Source of the DNA: a bacterium
Lineage (GTDB): Bacteria > Hinthialibacterota > Hinthialibacteria > OLB16
Reading direction: 5' to 3'
NCBI GenBank assembly: GCA_022072055.1
Contig: JAJVIK010000011.1
Span: 308,597 to 372,596 of the forward strand
DNA length: 64,000 bases
Positions 9,799 to 18,938 of this stretch are shown piece by piece. Under the pieces are notes generated by a model. The model was not told the origin of the DNA. It was given only the letters and a program-made list of their open reading frames with translations, and made no database searches. Position 1 is the stretch's first letter, and each line of letters starts with the position of its first letter. The translations under genes were made by a program, and so were the position numbers.

Positions 9799-11184
9799 TC
9801 AGAGTGGGGCCAGTGAATGGAGATATTCCTCCAGGTTAGTGAACCCATCGGTGTCGGAATCCCCATTTCGATCCGTGGGATCGGCCGGGTCGAGACCTTG
9901 GGCGGTTTCCCATTCATCCGGCATGCCATCCGAATCGCTGTCGGTCGGAGGGGCGCCGCCGACAAGTTCCGGCCATCCGCCGACTTCATCCTGCGAGTCA
10001 ATCAGCCTCCCCTTTCGATTCCGGATATCTTCGATTAGGCGCTTGTCGACGGAGTCGCGGGAGTGCGCGGCCCCGGCGCGTTCCAGTACCTGTTCGTAGG
10101 CCTCCAGCGCCGAATCCGTCTCAGGGGTGTCCGCCCCTAGGTCATAGGCCTCTTCCACTTTCCAATCCTGGATGGTCCCCGCGTATTTGTAGTTGGACTC
10201 GGGACCGAGCCAGCGCTCGAAGTCCAAGGCCAGGTAATTGTTTTCGGTCAGGTCGTTCCTCCCCTCGAAAAAGTTCCCGCTCATGTGTCCACGCGCCTTG
10301 TCCGGGAGGCTGGCCTTCATGGCGATGGGCAGTCGCTTGGGATCCGATTCCGGACCGGGCCGGAAGTAGTTGTTGATCAGGTTGACCTGGTTGTCGCACA
10401 CGTTCGCCGCGCCACTCCAGTTGTAAATCAGGTTGTTCCGGAAATCGATGATCCACTGGGGGTCCTGGACCGAACCTCCGATGGTCGGGTGACGGTCCCG
10501 GCTGGTGGCGAAGATGTTGTGATGGATGGTGATGTTGCCGAGCGGCGCCCGAAATGAGGCGCACATCGCGTGGGGGCCCTTGGGGTGGATGCTATCATTG
10601 AGGGCCTCGCTGAAGATGCACCACTGGAGCGTGTAGTTCTTGCAGCGCCGGATATCCTGAATGCCATCAATTCCCCAACTTGCCGAGACATGATCCAGGA
10701 TCACCCGGTCGCAGTCGTTCACCGTGATGGCGTCGGGCCCGGCCTTGGGACCTTTGTTCTTGTCGCCGAGGCGGACACGGAGGCGTCGGATGACAATATT
10801 GTCGGCGTCTTCAAGAACGAGGGTCTGGTCCTTGAGGGTGATCCCCTCGCCGGGGGCGGTTTGTCCGGCAAGGGTGAGTCCCGAGTGGCGGATCTTGAGA
10901 GGAGTTTTGAGTTCAATGGTTCCGCCAACCCGGAAAACAATGGTCCTTGGACCCCGCGCCGAGACGATCCCTTCACGAAGGGATCCGGGTCCGGAATCCT
11001 CGAGGTTGGTGACGGCATAGACATCCCCGCCGCGTCCCCCAGTGGAGAATCGCCCATACCCTTCCGCTCCGGGGAAGGCGATCACTTCAGGCTCGACGCG
11101 CTCGGCCCCGACGACTCCCGGCTCGATGAGGATCCAGGCGAGGAGGGCAATGGCTAGAAGAACGTTGGAATAAATCCACGACAT
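9799..11184 (-). CDS. Secreted pectate-lyase-like beta-helix protein with a C-terminal calcium-repeat tail
   Basis: 461 residues. The start at 11184 has an AAGGAG ribosome site and is followed by a signal peptide (MSWIYSNVLLAIALLAW...). The body begins VIAFPGAEGYGRFSTGGRGG and shows the pectate lyase pattern: TGGRGGDVYAVTNLEDSG, PGSLREGI, RTIVFRVGG, AGQTAPGEGI, ISWG-like VSASWG. It contains successive beta-helix turns. Near the C-terminus DSDSDGMPDEWE and NGDSDTDGFTNLEEY are thrombospondin type 3 / dockerin-like calcium motifs. The expected activity is beta-elimination of polygalacturonate or a related uronic-acid polymer. It is 91 bp upstream of the sulfatase on the same strand. Confidence 0.88.
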   Translation of the reverse strand: MSWIYSNVLLAIALLAWILIEPGVVGAERVEPEVIAFPGAEGYGRFSTGGRGGDVYAVTNLEDSGPGSLREGIVSARGPRTIVFRVGGTIELKTPLKIRHSGLTLAGQTAPGEGITLKDQTLVLEDADNIVIRRLRVRLGDKNKGPKAGPDAITVNDCDRVILDHVSASWGIDGIQDIRRCKNYTLQWCIFSEALNDSIHPKGPHAMCASFRAPLGNITIHHNIFATSRDRHPTIGGSVQDPQWIIDFRNNLIYNWSGAANVCDNQVNLINNYFRPGPESDPKRLPIAMKASLPDKARGHMSGNFFEGRNDLTENNYLALDFERWLGPESNYKYAGTIQDWKVEEAYDLGADTPETDSALEAYEQVLERAGAAHSRDSVDKRLIEDIRNRKGRLIDSQDEVGGWPELVGGAPPTDSDSDGMPDEWETAQGLDPADPTDRNGDSDTDGFTNLEEYLHSLAPL

Positions 11185-11295
11185 GAGGAAGGCTCCTTGG
11201 CCCCTTTCGGGCAGAAGAGAAGGCGAAAGGAGGAGAAGGAGGTCGCCTCCCTCCGCCAATGACCGTTTACGGGTCATGCACCCCGAATCCTAAAG

Positions 11296-12728: not shown

Positions 12729-13406
12729 TCACCTACTCGGCGGCAGGCGCTTGAAATAGGGCTGGTTGTCCAAAATGACCGGATCTCTCAGATGAGGGGC
12801 GTTGAGCAGGTCGGGTCGCGCGGAGTCCATGCGCATGCCGATATAGGCTGAATCTCCGCCCCACAGCACAATGTTGCCGTTGCTTCGAGTCCCATTTGTC
12901 GGGGTATAAGTCCGGTTGTTCCCGCCGTAGTGGGGGCTGTCTTGATCAAAAGGCTCCTCGTCGCCGTCGGGACCGGGCGAGAAGATTGTCCAAGTCACCA
13001 AACACTGATGACACTTGGGATAGATCCCCTGCCCCGGGCCTTGACCCGCCTCCATCCCGCCGAGCTCGTAGGTGACATACCCATGCGCGTCGGCCGCGGC
13101 CGCAGCGCTGCCGTTGTCAAAGGCGAAAAAGGGATCCTGAGGCATGTCGCTCATGTACTTGATCGGAGAGGTCAGCCAGAACAGCCCCCCCCTCTGGTGG
13201 CGTTCCTGGTCATCCGGATAGATCTTGAAGTCCAGGTAGTAGGCCGCCATCGCCGTGTCGATGGAGCGCATCTCGCTCTTCGCCCTGGCCACCTTGGAGC
13301 GAATCTGGGCCTCAAGGAAGTTCGGAAGCGCGATGGCGATGAGGATCAGGATGATGGCGATTACGATAAGCAGCTCGATCAGGGTGAACGCGGATTTGCG
13401 TTTCAT
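12729..13406 (-). CDS. Type II secretion/type IV pilin-like pseudopilin
   Basis: 225 residues. It starts MKRKSA|FTLIELLIVIAI, a class III prepilin leader with the cleavage site before Phe7 and Glu at +5, then a long hydrophobic helix ending AIALPNFLEAQ. The remaining about 180 residues form a globular head with SEMRSIDTAMAAYYLDFKIYPDD, as in GspG-like pseudopilins, but longer than the usual GspG of about 140. Strong AAGGAGAG ribosome site. No other secretion genes lie next to it. In candidate phyla many isolated proteins of this type occur, with unknown cargo. Confidence 0.9.
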   Translation of the reverse strand: MKRKSAFTLIELLIVIAIILILIAIALPNFLEAQIRSKVARAKSEMRSIDTAMAAYYLDFKIYPDDQERHQRGGLFWLTSPIKYMSDMPQDPFFAFDNGSAAAAADAHGYVTYELGGMEAGQGPGQGIYPKCHQCLVTWTIFSPGPDGDEEPFDQDSPHYGGNNRTYTPTNGTRSNGNIVLWGGDSAYIGMRMDSARPDLLNAPHLRDPVILDNQPYFKRLPPSR

Positions 13407-13492
13407 GATTGCTCTCCTTCCAATTCGATTCCGACCGCCGAGCGAAGGGGAGGAGTTCCCAAGGCTCCTCCCCCTTGTCGAAAGGTCTCAGC

Positions 13493-15430
13493 TCACCGGT
13501 ATAGCGACCAGTTCTCCACGTCCGTGGTGACAAAGCAGGTGTCCTTGGCCCCCGCGTTCTTGGCGCCATCAATCGCCGCGGCCATGCCGTCGGCGCGGAT
13601 GAACAAGTAAGTCAGCGAAAGCGGATCCTGGTCGCAGTACACGTCCTCAAGGGCCGAGGCGGTGAGGGATCCCCCTCCGTGGACAATCGCCGCGGCCTCA
13701 GCCCCTCCAAACTGAGCGCTTGAGCTCAGGTCGACGAACACATTGAAGTTTTCGCTCATGGCCACCCCGGTGGAGGCCTGCGAAAGCGCGTTCACCCCCC
13801 ACTCGCTGAAGATGCAGTAGTCGATGGTGATCGGGTAAGCGCTGCCCGCCGTGTTGGTGACGCCGTTCTGGTTGTTGTCGTGGAACGTGCAATTCCTGAA
13901 CAAGGCGCTTCCGCCGGGAGAGGCGGTATCCTCGAAGGAAACGGCTGTGAACTGGCCGGTGAAGCTGCTGCGAAGAATGACAGTCCCGGTGACGGTCAGC
14001 GTGTTCGGACCGCTGGAGGCCGCGGCCCCTTGAACACGAATCGCGCGTTGGTTGTTCTCAAAAAGGCTGTTTGAGAAGGTGATCGAGGAATTCCGGATGT
14101 GGCGCGGTTCGGAGGGAGTTCCCCCGCTTCCCGTGTTCCCGTTGAAGCATTCAATGCCCGATTGAAAACCATGGATCGACGAATTGGTGATCCGCCAACT
14201 GGCGTCGGTGGATTCGAGGATCTTGAACCCTTGCTCCGCCTCGCCGGACATGGCGAGGATGTGGGCGTCATTGATCAGGAAAGTGGTGCGGTGGTCCTGA
14301 TCACAGGTGACCGCCTCCTCCGAATTGCCGGTCTGGAGGCCGTCGATGGTCACCTCCATGTTCGTGCTGTTCTGGATGCGCAGCGCCTCGTCGCCGCCGT
14401 CCGGTTTGTTTCCCGGGCTGCCGATATAGCTGCAATCCGTGATAATCACCTCGCCATCCGTGAACTCCTGGATATGATTCCCGCGCCCGTTATTGAAATT
14501 CTGGAAGATGCAGTTGGTCAGATAGACGTTCCCCGGGGTGAAGTTTCCCTTCCATTCGGCGCAGTGGCGGAACCCGTTCACGGTGCAGTTGGTCAACGAG
14601 AAGGTGGTGTTCTTGGCCCTTGTTTTGACCCCGATTCCCTGGTTGTTCCCCATCAAGGTCATGGGATCCCAGAGCGGCGCGCTGATGTGGGTGTTGGTGA
14701 TCGTCAGAGTGGTGAAATCCAGGTCCCCATCGTCATACTGAACGGCTCGGTCGGAGGCTCCCTCGTCCGTGGCCGCGATGTCGCAATTGTTGATGATGAT
14801 ATCCGTGTGCTGAACATCCACGACCTCCACGCCCCTTCCGCGAGTACTGCTGGAGGTGGTCGCCGACTTGCTGTTCCGCAGGATGTCACAATTGTCGATC
14901 GTGACGGTCGAACCTGTGGTTGGTCCGCTGCCGTCCACGAGCACGCCTCGTCCCTGGTTGTCATTCAGATCCGAGTTCCGGATGGTGATGCCGGAGGTGC
15001 TTGCGTCGATTGTCACCCCGTGACTCGCGTTCTGGGAGAGGATGCAATTGTCGACCAGGATCGCGGAAGCGGTGGTTTCGAAGATGGTGACCGCGGACCC
15101 AAGGGTGTTTTGGACCTGGATGTTCGATAGCGTGAAGGGATTGCCGGCGACGACGATTCGTATGTTTCCATCGATGATTGGAAGGGGATTCTGGCTGCTT
15201 GTCAGGATCCCGGTCGTGGCGAAGGTGGCGCTCTCAACATAGTTCGCCGCGGTGAGATTGACCGTGTCTCCCGCGTTCATGGCCGAGGCCGCCGCTTGGA
15301 TAGTGGTCTGATCCCCCGGGACATTGATTGTGGCCGCATGGATTCCTCCAATGCCTGCCAGGCACGCCAGAGTGGTGGCCAGGGCTAGACTAGGCGTGCT
15401 CCAACTCTTGAAAATCCGTGTCTCTCTCAT
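13493..15430 (-). CDS. Secreted right-handed parallel beta-helix protein, paralogue of the neighbouring BlaR1-like sensor domain
   Basis: 645 residues from the ATG at 15430, behind a strong AGGAGG site. The signal peptide ends near GIHA-A (33). From residue 34 it is a long run of parallel beta-helix turns (VTIDNCDILRN, LTITNTHIS, VYLTNCIFQNF and so on) with a Nosd/pectin-lyase character. Residues about 36-430 line up with residues 398-800 of the downstream-sensor protein at 15591-18434 almost without gaps: NPLP at 81 versus 444, GFRH at 286 versus 649, NGRG at 314 versus 677, GDEALRI at 346 versus 708, EEA at 371 versus 733. No obvious lyase catalytic site. It may bind or process a surface polysaccharide. 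It follows the sensor gene after 160 bp on the same strand. Confidence 0.88.
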   Translation of the reverse strand: MRETRIFKSWSTPSLALATTLACLAGIGGIHAATINVPGDQTTIQAAASAMNAGDTVNLTAANYVESATFATTGILTSSQNPLPIIDGNIRIVVAGNPFTLSNIQVQNTLGSAVTIFETTASAILVDNCILSQNASHGVTIDASTSGITIRNSDLNDNQGRGVLVDGSGPTTGSTVTIDNCDILRNSKSATTSSSTRGRGVEVVDVQHTDIIINNCDIAATDEGASDRAVQYDDGDLDFTTLTITNTHISAPLWDPMTLMGNNQGIGVKTRAKNTTFSLTNCTVNGFRHCAEWKGNFTPGNVYLTNCIFQNFNNGRGNHIQEFTDGEVIITDCSYIGSPGNKPDGGDEALRIQNSTNMEVTIDGLQTGNSEEAVTCDQDHRTTFLINDAHILAMSGEAEQGFKILESTDASWRITNSSIHGFQSGIECFNGNTGSGGTPSEPRHIRNSSITFSNSLFENNQRAIRVQGAAASSGPNTLTVTGTVILRSSFTGQFTAVSFEDTASPGGSALFRNCTFHDNNQNGVTNTAGSAYPITIDYCIFSEWGVNALSQASTGVAMSENFNVFVDLSSSAQFGGAEAAAIVHGGGSLTASALEDVYCDQDPLSLTYLFIRADGMAAAIDGAKNAGAKDTCFVTTDVENWSLYR

Positions 15431-15590
15431 CTTATTTCCTCCTGTTTTTCCCAACACTGACCTGGGTTCCCCACGCCAAGACGCGGTTATTCGTATGCCT
15501 GGACACACGGGTAACGTCACCATACATACACATCCTCACCACTTTGTCACACAACAAGCGAAGACTTCCCCCTTGCGATTCCTCCTCTTG

Positions 15591-18434
15591 CTACTCTCTC
15601 ATTGCGGTTTTCTTGATCGCCCTTGCACCTTTTAAGGTTGAGGCGAGCTGCTCATGTCCTGAATCCGCCAACAGGCGCTTTCGCGAGGCTGCCGGGCCTG
15701 CGGGTGCGTAGTCACTCAGGGTTGTTGCCCGGGTTTCACGTCCCGAGGGGGACAGACCCCGGGCCGCCGGGAATTCCATCACCGCGCCGAGCGAGGCCAG
15801 TTTCATGGGACGCTCCAGCTCTTGGATTCCCAAGCTCGGTTCTTCATGCCCGCAATTTCCCCCGGTTGATGCGGTAGTAATCCAATTGCCGTCTTGGCTC
15901 CCGCGACATGCTTCCTCGCCGCCTTTGTGGGTTGCTTCGCAATTCACTAAGGTCAGCTCCGTGCACTCATCGAGGGGGGAACCCTCAAGGCAGGTGGGCT
16001 GATCAATGTCAAGGAAGCGCGTGTCTCGGACCAGGATTTCCTGCGGGGCCGCAAGGGATGAGCAGCGAACTCCGGTCTGAAACTCCTTCACCAGAGAGCC
16101 TTCAACCCGGATCAAGGACCCGCCGTTCGACAGGAATTTGAAACCGTTCGCGCCCCCTCCAAGCCCCTTGTTCAGCTCGACCTGGGAGATCAGGACAGAG
16201 TCCAGGTGAAGGCACTGGTCGATGGTGATTGCCTCCTCGGTGTTGGAGGTGAAGATACGCTTGAGGTTGACCATCAAATTGGTGCAGAAACGGATCCGGA
16301 GCGCCTCGTCGCCGCCAACGGGCTTCACTCCGGGGTTGCCGATCAGAGAAACATTCTCCACAAGGGCGCGCCCGCTGAGCCCCTCCAGGATCAACCCGCG
16401 ACCGTTAACGAATCCTCTAAACTCCGAATCGGTGATGCTCGCCTCGGTCGGGAAACCTCGGGTCTTGACCTCCACCGCGTGCCTGAAACCGACAACCCTG
16501 CACTCATCAATCCTCACTGTCGCCGTGGCGGACTTGATCTTAAAGCCGATGCCATTGGTGTTCCCCGACCCGGTGAGGGGATCGAATACCGGAGCCATGA
16601 CCGTGGTGTTGAGGAAGCTGAAGTCCATGTCCTGAAGGTTGGGGCTATCCAATTGGATCGCCCGGTCCGCCTTCCCATCGGGCGTCACCAAGATCACCGA
16701 ATCGGCCACGCGAAGGATTCCGGCCTTCATGGAACCCAGCTGGATTGCCCTTCCTCGACTGCTGCTGTCCGTGGGAAAACTCAGGCCGTTCCGGGCCAGG
16801 AGACAGCCCTCAACCCGGATACTGGTCCCGGGCTGAACCCTCTCTGAGGAGAACTCGATTCCCCGTCGTCCGTTGTCCAGGATGTTCGAGCTCCTCACAT
16901 GGATCTCCGTGAAGGGGGAGTTCACCCAGATCCCACACGATCCGCTGCACACGATGTTCGACTCTTCGATGAAAACCTTGGAACCGGTCGCGGAGACGAT
17001 CTCCACTCCGTTTCCACCGGGGTTGGTGATCTCAATCCCATCCAAACGGAGCGCGCTTTCGGCGGCCTCAAAGCGGATCGCGCCCAGAAGCACCGGGAGG
17101 GGATTTGAGTGACTCACCAGCGCAAGGGAGTGGCGCACCCGAAAGCTCTCTTCATACACCCTGGAGTCGGTGATCTCGATCACATCCCCGGGCTTCGAAT
17201 GGGAAAGAGCCTCGGAAATTGTGGGGTATCGTTCGCCTTGTCCGACTGCAAGCACGGTCCGGTGCGAAAAGAACCGGTGCAAGGAAGCCACCAGACCATG
17301 TGGGCCGGGCAGATCCGGGTCACTCGCGTCACCGGAAAGCGGAACGGAAAGCGCCAGTCCCATCGAGGCCAACCACGCGCACAAGGTGGCCATCAGCGCG
17401 GTGCGGGTCAGGCGCTTGAGCCCCGAGGAGCTTCCAGAAAGAACCGCCTCGACTCGCTGCACGAAAGTGGATCTGCAGAGCACGATTCCGGCCGCCAAGC
17501 GGTTTACGGAGATTCGAGGGCCGCGAAGCGTCTCCGCGAAATGGACCAACAGCCTGGCGTACGCGAGCGGCTTTTGAGTGGCGTTGAGCACCGTCTCGTC
17601 GGCGGTCTGCTCGATCAGGGCCCCAATCTGCCGCGAGGCAAGCCACACAAGCGGGTGGAAGAAGAGGATCGCGCGCACAATCGCGATCCCGAAGAGCACC
17701 AGGGGGTCATGGCGCTTGACATGCGCCAATTCGTGCGCGGCCACCGCTAGTAGCTCATCGTCGCTCAGGCTCACGCCCAGGTCTCCGGGCACAAGCACGC
17801 ATGGGCGCCAAAGTCCCACGGTCAGCGGCGAATTCACCCGGCTGCTTTCACGAATCAGCACCTGTTTCCGCAGCGCCAGGAGCTCTCGCGCGGTTTCATG
17901 GAGCCGGAGCACGCGCCGATCTCGAACCGGTCTTGAGGTCGTGATCCAGGAGCGTATCCGCCATCGTCCCATCCCGATCTGAAGGAGCATTCCCCCCGCA
18001 ATCATTCCATACAGGCACACCAACAGCGCCCATGGGTAATCGAACGGAGTCCCCCGATCGGTCGCGGATGGGGTTTGCGCAGGGATCTGCGGAAACGCCG
18101 AAAGGGGAAGGAGCGCGTCATCCTCCCACGCCACCTCCGGACGAACCGTTGGGGCCACATGGGCGTTGGGGTCATAGGCGGGCAACACATAGACCGGAAC
18201 CTGGGGAGCCCCCATCCGGGACGCCGCGATGCTGAAGAAGGGGATTGTCGGCGTGGCCAGAACGGCCCACAACAGGAGACCGCGCCGGCTCGAGGCGGAG
18301 CGGCTTCTGAGCGCTCGCGACAGGAGAAACGCAAGCAGAAAGAGGATGGAGCTCTGCCACAGGAGACCCAAGAGGATCCTTGACGCGACAAATCCGAATT
18401 GGTCAAGCGTCTCCAGGACAGAGGGAGGAGTCAT
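15591..18434 (-). CDS. BlaR1/MecR1-like M56 metalloprotease with a beta-helix sensor domain
   Basis: 947 residues. Residues 1-370 are an M56 transmembrane peptidase: hydrophobic helices near 17-42, 51-72, 133-158, 243-268 and 343-366, zinc motif H234-E-L-A-H238 in VAAHELAHVKRHD, and a probable third ligand Glu275 in IEQTADETVL. After the last helix, residues 395-830 form an outward-facing parallel beta-helix in place of the beta-lactam-binding domain of true BlaR1. This sensor is a clear paralogue of the secreted protein encoded next. The tail (850-947) is low in structure. By analogy, ligand binding outside would switch on the cytoplasmic-side protease, which inactivates the BlaI-like repressor encoded upstream with a 4-bp ATGA overlap. 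The protease motif is intact. Ligand unknown, perhaps a polysaccharide. Confidence 0.88.
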   Translation of the reverse strand: MTPPSVLETLDQFGFVASRILLGLLWQSSILFLLAFLLSRALRSRSASSRRGLLLWAVLATPTIPFFSIAASRMGAPQVPVYVLPAYDPNAHVAPTVRPEVAWEDDALLPLSAFPQIPAQTPSATDRGTPFDYPWALLVCLYGMIAGGMLLQIGMGRWRIRSWITTSRPVRDRRVLRLHETARELLALRKQVLIRESSRVNSPLTVGLWRPCVLVPGDLGVSLSDDELLAVAAHELAHVKRHDPLVLFGIAIVRAILFFHPLVWLASRQIGALIEQTADETVLNATQKPLAYARLLVHFAETLRGPRISVNRLAAGIVLCRSTFVQRVEAVLSGSSSGLKRLTRTALMATLCAWLASMGLALSVPLSGDASDPDLPGPHGLVASLHRFFSHRTVLAVGQGERYPTISEALSHSKPGDVIEITDSRVYEESFRVRHSLALVSHSNPLPVLLGAIRFEAAESALRLDGIEITNPGGNGVEIVSATGSKVFIEESNIVCSGSCGIWVNSPFTEIHVRSSNILDNGRRGIEFSSERVQPGTSIRVEGCLLARNGLSFPTDSSSRGRAIQLGSMKAGILRVADSVILVTPDGKADRAIQLDSPNLQDMDFSFLNTTVMAPVFDPLTGSGNTNGIGFKIKSATATVRIDECRVVGFRHAVEVKTRGFPTEASITDSEFRGFVNGRGLILEGLSGRALVENVSLIGNPGVKPVGGDEALRIRFCTNLMVNLKRIFTSNTEEAITIDQCLHLDSVLISQVELNKGLGGGANGFKFLSNGGSLIRVEGSLVKEFQTGVRCSSLAAPQEILVRDTRFLDIDQPTCLEGSPLDECTELTLVNCEATHKGGEEACRGSQDGNWITTASTGGNCGHEEPSLGIQELERPMKLASLGAVMEFPAARGLSPSGRETRATTLSDYAPAGPAASRKRLLADSGHEQLASTLKGARAIKKTAMRE

Positions 18435-18835
18435 TTCCCGTTCAAATCCTTTCCCAGCTCATACTTGTCAATCAGCTCCTTGACCTCGGCGATCTCGTCC
18501 TCGCGGACAAGATTGGACTTGAGAAGAGCCACAACCAGACCGAGCGCGCTTCCCTCAAAGGCGCGATCCACCAGGTCTCGGATAAAACTGCGGTGAGCCT
18601 GGGTCCGGCTGATGGTGGTTCGATAGGCATGGCCACGTCCCTGCGGACGTCGCGCCACGTACCCCTTCTCTTGGAGGATTGAGAGCATCTTACGGACACT
18701 CGGCAACGCGAGCGGTTTGCCGTGATGGGCCAAGGCGTCCCGGATCTCCTCGACCGTGGCCTCCTCACGGTCCCAGACAATCTTCATGATCTCGAGCTCC
18801 AGCTCGGTCAGGGTTTTTGAGGGTCGACGAGCCAT
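18431..18835 (-). CDS. BlaI/MecI/CopY-family transcriptional repressor
   Basis: 134 residues. The N-terminal winged helix has the family pattern LTELELEIMKIVWDRE, TVEEIRDAL, SVRKMLSILQEKGYVAR. The C-terminal helices form the dimer domain (SFIRDLVDRAFEGSALGLVVALL). BlaI-type repressors bind DNA as dimers and are inactivated when a partner M56 protease is triggered. That partner is encoded directly downstream with a 4-bp overlap. Two GCGAA-N4-TTCGC palindromes flank its promoter, consistent with autoregulation. The GGAAGG ribosome site is about 11 nt ahead of the ATG, slightly far. The classical TACA/TGTA box of beta-lactamase operons is not seen, so the target site differs. Confidence 0.93.
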   Translation of the reverse strand: MARRPSKTLTELELEIMKIVWDREEATVEEIRDALAHHGKPLALPSVRKMLSILQEKGYVARRPQGRGHAYRTTISRTQAHRSFIRDLVDRAFEGSALGLVVALLKSNLVREDEIAEVKELIDKYELGKDLNGK

Positions 18836-18873: not shown

Positions 18874-18893
18874 TCCGCGAAACAATTCGCGGA
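18874..18893 (-). promoter_or_regulatory. Operator O2 of the BlaI-like repressor (covers expected start site)
   Basis: TCCGCGAA-N4-TTCGCGGA is a perfect 8-bp inverted repeat with a 4-bp spacer, immediately after the -10 element on the minus strand and so over the expected transcription start. Its core GCGAA-N4-TTCGC is identical in arms and spacing to the site at 18925-18938. A further GCGAA half-site follows at 18866-18870. Confidence 0.7.
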
Positions 18894-18895
18894 GG

Positions 18896-18924
18896 ATACT
18901 ACTTCCCCCTCGGTCGCGTGTCAA
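18896..18924 (-). promoter_or_regulatory. Promoter of the repressor-sensor operon
   Basis: On the minus strand a perfect TTGACA (18924-18919) and TAGTAT (18901-18896) are spaced by exactly 17 bp. The leader to the ATG at 18835 is about 50 nt. Both ends touch or nearly touch a palindromic operator, so a bound repressor would block polymerase. Confidence 0.78.
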
Positions 18925-18938
18925 GCGAATTTTTTCGC
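18925..18938 (-). promoter_or_regulatory. Operator O1 of the BlaI-like repressor (abuts the -35)
   Basis: GCGAA-N4-TTCGC, perfect 5-bp arms, ends directly against the TTGACA of the promoter. The centre lies 48 bp from the centre of the second operator. Same arms and spacer as O2. Confidence 0.68.

Follow-up and report, generated by a model that had tools for sequence, protein, structure and literature searches.

The closest described systems to the one considered here are BlaR1-BlaI and MecR1-MecI of Staphylococcus aureus and Bacillus licheniformis, in which a BlaI-family repressor stands beside an M56 protease. These receptors carry HExxH, ExxxD and Arg landmarks (in BlaR1, H201EXXH, E242XXXD with E242/D246, and R294; PMC9834060), four membrane helices with a re-entrant stretch, and an outward-facing C-terminal domain akin to a secreted family, in BlaR1's case the class D beta-lactamases, of which its sensor is a slow relative (PMC7593790). 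Receptors of the BlaR1 kind are known almost exclusively for sensing antibiotics, yet M56/BlaI pairs are also present in the genomes of many environmental phyla. Here, we describe such a pair in a bacterium of the lineage OLB16 (Hinthialibacterota; assembly GCA_022072055.1), encoded in a stretch of 64,000 nucleotides of contig JAJVIK010000011.1 (positions 308,597 to 372,596, hereafter the window). It shares all of the above features with BlaR1/MecR1, but the sensor is a beta-helix without a penicillin-binding domain, the paralogue of this sensor is encoded by the adjacent gene, and both the operator sequence and the residues at the BlaI cleavage site differ. Another point of comparison is Sigma-I/RsgI of Clostridium thermocellum, described as biomass sensors (PMC12203970, PMC4711584). 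It likewise uses a membrane receptor that reads outside polysaccharides and governs secreted degradative enzymes with a proteolytic output, but works through an anti-sigma and a sigma factor rather than BlaI, and its receptor is cut by other proteases and has no M56 domain of its own.

The unit comprises three minus-strand genes for a BlaI/MecI-type repressor, an M56 receptor-protease and an exported beta-helix protein (Table 1), and on inspection the coordinates and order agreed with those of an initial annotation made from the DNA letters. The stop codon of blaI and the ATG of the M56 gene overlap by 4 bases (ATGA). For the exported protein, the ATG at 15430 is preceded by an AGGAGG Shine-Dalgarno sequence at 15438-15443, 7 nt upstream, and is probably the true start rather than the open reading frame start at 15523 (676 aa). 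A search between the M56 gene and the exported gene found no promoter, operator or terminator, which, together with the hairpin after the exported gene, makes a single transcription unit likely. Within the genome (5.86 Mb), the four BlaI genes and four M56 genes are paired one to one.

The relationship between the sensor and its neighbour is a specific one. BLASTP aligns the exported protein with the M56 outer domain at 130/388 identities (34%) with 3 gaps (E=2e-64), and the NPLP, GFRH, NGRG, GDEALRI and EEA landmarks all fall in register; the offset of 362-363 residues read from them in the initial annotation is correct, if the exported protein begins at ATG 15430 (645 aa). Genome-wide, only these two sequences match strongly, the next matches lying at 4.6e-7 and 1.2e-4. 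A merely generic likeness between two beta-helices, which the initial annotation had named as the outcome that would speak against its proposal, was dismissed, as the alignment is collinear and has no equal elsewhere in the genome, and the proposed paralogy was thus borne out. Both proteins exceed the gathering cut-off of the PF13229 family (25.9 bits), scoring 51 and 31 bits, and in the M56 protein the match covers aa 460-550. AlphaFold2 models agree, with a parallel beta-helix over aa 394-835 of the M56 protein (predicted local distance difference test, pLDDT, about 80-95; about 90 in the protease part) and a helix over aa 32-430 of the exported protein (about 80-90). The closest folds across both proteins are polysaccharide lyases, glucanases and tailspikes, with pertactin and antigen 43 also among the matches; in particular, the M56 model retrieved the beta-helix carbohydrate enzymes GH87, PL6 and GH28 as well as tailspikes, and the exported protein PL6 lyases and tailspikes. 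A sequence search of the PDB with the exported protein gave no match, and no C-terminal anchor was seen in it.

In the receptor-protease itself, H234ELAH, E275xxxD279 and R327 are the counterparts of BlaR1 H201, E242/D246 and R294. Hydropathy peaks at 20-38, 53-71, 137-155, 245-263 and 346-364 and the structural model predict a BlaR1-like arrangement of four membrane helices, a re-entrant stretch after HELAH and a C-terminal domain that would face outwards. BlaR1 structures from cryogenic electron microscopy are among the best fold matches of the model (transmembrane and protease domain of 8exr, TMt 0.60). Neither Pfam nor the NCBIfam profile detected a penicillin-binding domain, and on the NCBIfam equivalog for BlaR1/MecR1 the protein scores 90 bits, from its M56 part only, against a curated cut-off of 400. 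The protein probably works like BlaR1 and belongs to the same protease family, but lies outside the beta-lactam sensors. In this respect, too, the initial annotation held: an M56 protease with HELAH at 234-238 and without a penicillin-binding domain is what Pfam, the motif residues and the model returned, and neither a lost active site nor an absent outward beta-helix was found when looked for in the model. The closest M56 relative outside the genome (L114) shares 37% identity over aa 1-371, yet bears a PD40 propeller, which indicates that sensors are swapped on a common protease.

The repressor scores 96.5 bits on PF03965 (Penicillinase_R; cut-off 22.6), and its alignment to MecI spans aa 9-124, covering both the winged helix and the C-terminal dimer helices. 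Exact GCGAA-N4-TTCGC dyads occur twice in the window (0.09 expected), and both flank the blaI promoter. We regard these two sites as candidate BlaI operators through which the repressor may control its own transcription. A like layout is present at the locus of the PD40 relative, where CGAGAA-N4-TTCTCG stands twice around a TTGACA promoter.

The design of a sensor that copies an adjacent exported protein is not confined to the window. We surveyed the M56 genes of 46 stretches, for the most part from relatives, and of 80 named GTDB loci, giving 126 outer domains, and counted as paralogue any adjacent non-M56 protein matching at E<1e-10 over at least 100 aa. Such a neighbour was found for 10/126 sensors, whereas the 15,750 non-cognate comparisons gave 24 matches (odds ratio 56, Fisher P=8e-14, for loci that are partly interdependent and with the window itself as one of the ten positives). 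All ten neighbours lie on the same strand and, by inspection, carry an N-terminal export signal. Besides the beta-helix of the window, the shared folds are a Kelch propeller (L084 and L085, two loci in one genome of the same class as the window), a polysaccharide deacetylase (L129, an Acidobacterium), a squalene-cyclase-like domain (L158, a Planctomycete), an unnamed family (L121 and L127, Verrucomicrobiota) and TonB_C (L090), with L131 (HEAT-like, 101 aa) and L166 (27%) as weaker cases. L081/L162, one locus present in two collections (shared dockerin, masked stretch), was graded weak, and the tandem M56-M56 loci L115 and L122 were left out of the count. An acidobacterial locus (L119) adds TIGR03435/DUF3738, a domain unrelated to the beta-helix: here, too, BlaI adjoins, and the domain fused to M56 also occurs in a free exported protein of the same locus. 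Sensors that copy adjacent exported proteins, which the initial annotation did not foresee, are thus a recurring theme with several unrelated folds. Throughout the survey, M56 genes mostly adjoin a BlaI gene (114/129), and the outer domains are highly varied (160 Pfam families over 98 M56 sensors). Among the loci surveyed, L115:2-5749 (Acidobacterium) holds three tandem M56 genes whose outer domains are mutually related (45-52% identity), and L039:4416-10541 encodes an M56 protein of 2042 aa with an outer part made largely of WD40-like repeats.

Two of these cases are especially informative. In the acidobacterial BlaI-M56 locus L129:7060-11067, an outer domain that copies a deacetylase lies beside the exported deacetylase. 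The latter keeps the NodB-type motifs TFDD, HTYSH, RHPF and LVH. In the receptor copy, with an overall identity of 51%, these places read TFVA, EGFSH, SYPF and MLT; TFDD is gone, and HTYSH, RHPF and LVH are short of their first His, their Arg and their His, respectively. Judged by these residues, the receptor copy should be inactive, yet may still bind the substrate, and would then resemble the BlaR1 sensor in being a weakened relative of an enzyme. The two BlaI-M56 systems with Kelch sensors (L084:5118-8760 and L085:906-4622) share one genome, and each stands beside its own exported Kelch paralogue. Within 9.5 kb at L085, the dyad CATCTA-N6-TAGAT is confined to two sites, one in the promoter of the exported Kelch gene and one in that of blaI, and so the same BlaI probably governs both. 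In a tree of the Kelch domains, every sensor falls with the neighbour encoded beside it, as recent local copies would, while the Limisphaerales family divides into a group of sensors and a group of exported forms (moderate support, 91/89), with the pair kept over time.

Taken together, we propose that the receptor is a membrane-tethered copy of a secreted effector within a BlaR1/BlaI-type unit, that it senses the same, probably carbohydrate, ligand as the effector, and that BlaI repression is relieved by proteolysis, a reading to which we assign a probability of roughly 0.55. In this scheme, BlaI bound to the two dyads around its own promoter would, without ligand, repress all three genes of the unit. 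The ligand of the outer beta-helix, which the exported paralogue would bind as well, would most likely be a polysaccharide or derived from one; upon its binding, the signal would cross the membrane to the M56 zinc site, whereupon BlaI would be cleaved and the genes derepressed. In evolutionary terms, the receptor domain would derive from a secreted effector by capture of a copy, and the same may hold for the class-D-beta-lactamase-like sensor of BlaR1. A BlaI/BlaR1-type pair whose protease keeps its M56 active site and bears on the outside a beta-helix paralogous to its exported neighbour, as first put forward in the initial annotation, is backed by both sequences and models; as to its suggestion that the released protein might share, compete for or present the ligand, we favour a tethered effector copy that sees the same ligand over competition or presentation, on the grounds of the recurrence with unrelated folds and of the loss of catalytic motifs in a sensor copy.

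A carbohydrate input is suggested by the wider genome. Five exact dyads have A/T-rich spacers: two at blaI, one inside an open reading frame and two at 44-54 bp upstream of exported genes. The latter belong to two distant units, C8 with a pectate-lyase-like gene and C6 with a pectate-lyase-like gene behind a ThuA-like one, and in C6 the dyad lies 4 nt after TTGACT-17-TAGCCT, in a layout as at blaI. By search, the genome holds exactly three pectate-lyase-like genes, those of C6, C8 and window positions 9799-11277. Both distant units are probably under BlaI control as well, and would then be repressed along with the unit itself. The two units, each with GCGAA-N4-TTCGC 44-54 bp upstream of its first gene, are those at L194:3390-5165 and L195:3174-6517, both of the same genome as the window. 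Of the polysaccharide or envelope state that the initial annotation had envisaged as input, the polysaccharide part is upheld in part, by candidate operators at the only two other pectate-lyase-like units and by nearest folds that are lyases, glucanases and tailspikes.

Several observations weigh against the proposal. The beta-helix fold matches of both proteins are low (TM-scores, i.e. template modelling scores, of 0.12-0.43), so that the likeness to PL6-like polysaccharide lyases consists of fold matches with low scores, and no catalytic motif was identified in the beta-helix proteins. The residues N101-F102, at which staphylococcal BlaI is cleaved, read Ala-Leu at the aligned place in this BlaI, and its cleavage is for this reason assumed; N101-F102 is perhaps a staphylococcal feature that is not required family-wide. 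No second genome with the beta-helix pair was found among 14 genomes of the phylum or 98 relatives, nor in a two-peptide scan of GTDB contigs, a weak test from which the own genome was possibly excluded, and 116/126 M56 sensors are without an adjacent paralogue in the stretch examined. Across the genome, exact dyads are hardly enriched over the reversed control pattern (17 vs 15), and hence the sites were judged singly by position. The window's own pectate-lyase-like unit (9799-11277) was searched for the dyad without success, and the C8 unit has no clear -35 element. Finally, the density of sites (15 remaining sites x ~60 bp / 5.86 Mb) gives a chance expectation of ~1.5e-4 per unit and ~2e-8 for the two named units, but the link to this regulon was noticed after the fact, and its true significance is weaker than the latter figure.

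The strongest alternative, which we nonetheless consider unlikely, casts the exported paralogue in the role of the signal: the tethered beta-helix would pair with the exported one (or with its substrate complex) and thereby meter its release or binding in a feedback or decoy circuit. Beta-helices commonly pack on one another, and the two domains are collinear over ~400 residues with a shared N-terminal cap, while each of the ten exported paralogues is encoded on the same strand. The selective loss of catalytic motifs in the deacetylase-like sensor, however, is better explained by substrate sensing, and the great majority of sensors lack an adjacent partner with which to pair. Less probable again is a by-product of duplication, in which a tandem copy was fused to the M56 protein and the receptor works, but with a ligand unrelated to the role of the exported protein. 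Fresh local copies would indeed group as the Kelch sensors do with their neighbours, and the variety of sensors swapped on one protease is in keeping with such an origin; it is harder to reconcile with the separate grouping of sensors and exported forms in Limisphaerales, where the pair was retained over time (at moderate support), with a dyad common to both genes at L085, and with the enrichment of paralogous neighbours of consistent strand and export.

The candidate operators at two pectate-lyase-like units likewise argue against a sensor of envelope or surface integrity, by which the beta-helix, as an adhesin-like or matrix protein, would report attachment or assembly rather than a food polysaccharide. 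Pertactin, antigen 43 and tailspikes among the fold matches and a pseudopilin-like protein encoded by the next downstream gene speak for this explanation, but the hairpin separates the pseudopilin gene from the unit and the exported protein is without a visible C-terminal anchor; we deem it improbable.

Beyond the tethered effector copy proposed for the window, it is tempting to generalise, though tentatively and at somewhat less than even odds, that M56 receptors repeatedly arise by effector capture: the effector gene would undergo duplication, and a copy fused behind the protease would be retained to read, without catalysis, the ligand of the effector. BlaR1, a beta-lactamase-like sensor controlling beta-lactam resistance, would then be one example of a general effector-to-receptor route, and, where the outer domain copies the controlled exported protein, the input of a system could be predicted from its neighbour gene. 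The sensor modules of RsgI, for comparison, are of kinds also found in the enzymes. The recurrence suggests a general way for bacteria to build receptors from secreted proteins under their control, for which the deacetylase pair of L129 and the Kelch pair of L085 offer directly testable cases. A non-penicillin sensor is not in itself a novelty, since genomes widely carry M56/BlaI pairs whose outer domains are of other kinds. The open-access literature searched yielded no description of M56 sensors other than beta-lactam sensors, nor of a BlaR1 with a sensor such as this one, in line with the initial annotation; as far as this literature shows, what is new is the pairing of a beta-helix sensor with an exported paralogue, together with the pattern that adjacent exported proteins can be copied as M56 sensors.

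Table 1. Features of the unit and its surroundings in the window (window coordinates; residue numbers refer to the M56 protein).
Feature	Position	Strand	Evidence
BlaI/MecI-type repressor gene, 134 aa	18431..18835	-	PF03965 E=1.7e-27; MecI structures E=5e-7
M56 receptor-protease gene with beta-helix outer domain, 947 aa	15591..18434	-	Pfam, model
Peptidase_M56 domain, aa 27-306	17517..18356	-	PF05569 E=3.2e-27; BlaR1 8exp E=7e-8 (sequence); 8exr TMt 0.60 (fold)
HELAH zinc motif, aa 234-238	17721..17735	-	With E275xxxD279 and R327, BlaR1 gluzincin signature
Last transmembrane helix before outer domain, aa 346-364	17343..17399	-	Hydropathy; model helix 340-363
Outer right-handed beta-helix sensor, aa 394-835	15930..17255	-	PF13229; model pLDDT about 80-95; paralogy with exported protein
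Exported beta-helix paralogue, 645 aa, Sec-type signal peptide	13493..15430	-	PF13229 E=1.6e-13; AGGAGG; model
G+C-rich hairpin 3' of exported beta-helix gene, possible unit end, without T-run	13447..13474	-	
blaI promoter TTGACA-17-TAGTAT	18896..18924	-	
Operator-like dyad GCGAA-N4-TTCGC directly upstream of -35	18925..18938	.	Exact match
Operator-like dyad TCCGCGAA-N4-TTCGCGGA directly downstream of -10	18874..18893	.	
Pectate-lyase-like exported protein	9799..11277	-	9buj pectate lyase E=8e-50; one of three in genome

Directly after the unit and on the same strand, positions 12729-13406 of the window encode the pseudopilin-like protein, which has an N-terminal methylation motif. At 278-2491, a single open reading frame combines one domain each of the BD-FAE-type esterase, alpha-L-fucosidase and F5/8 type C kinds.
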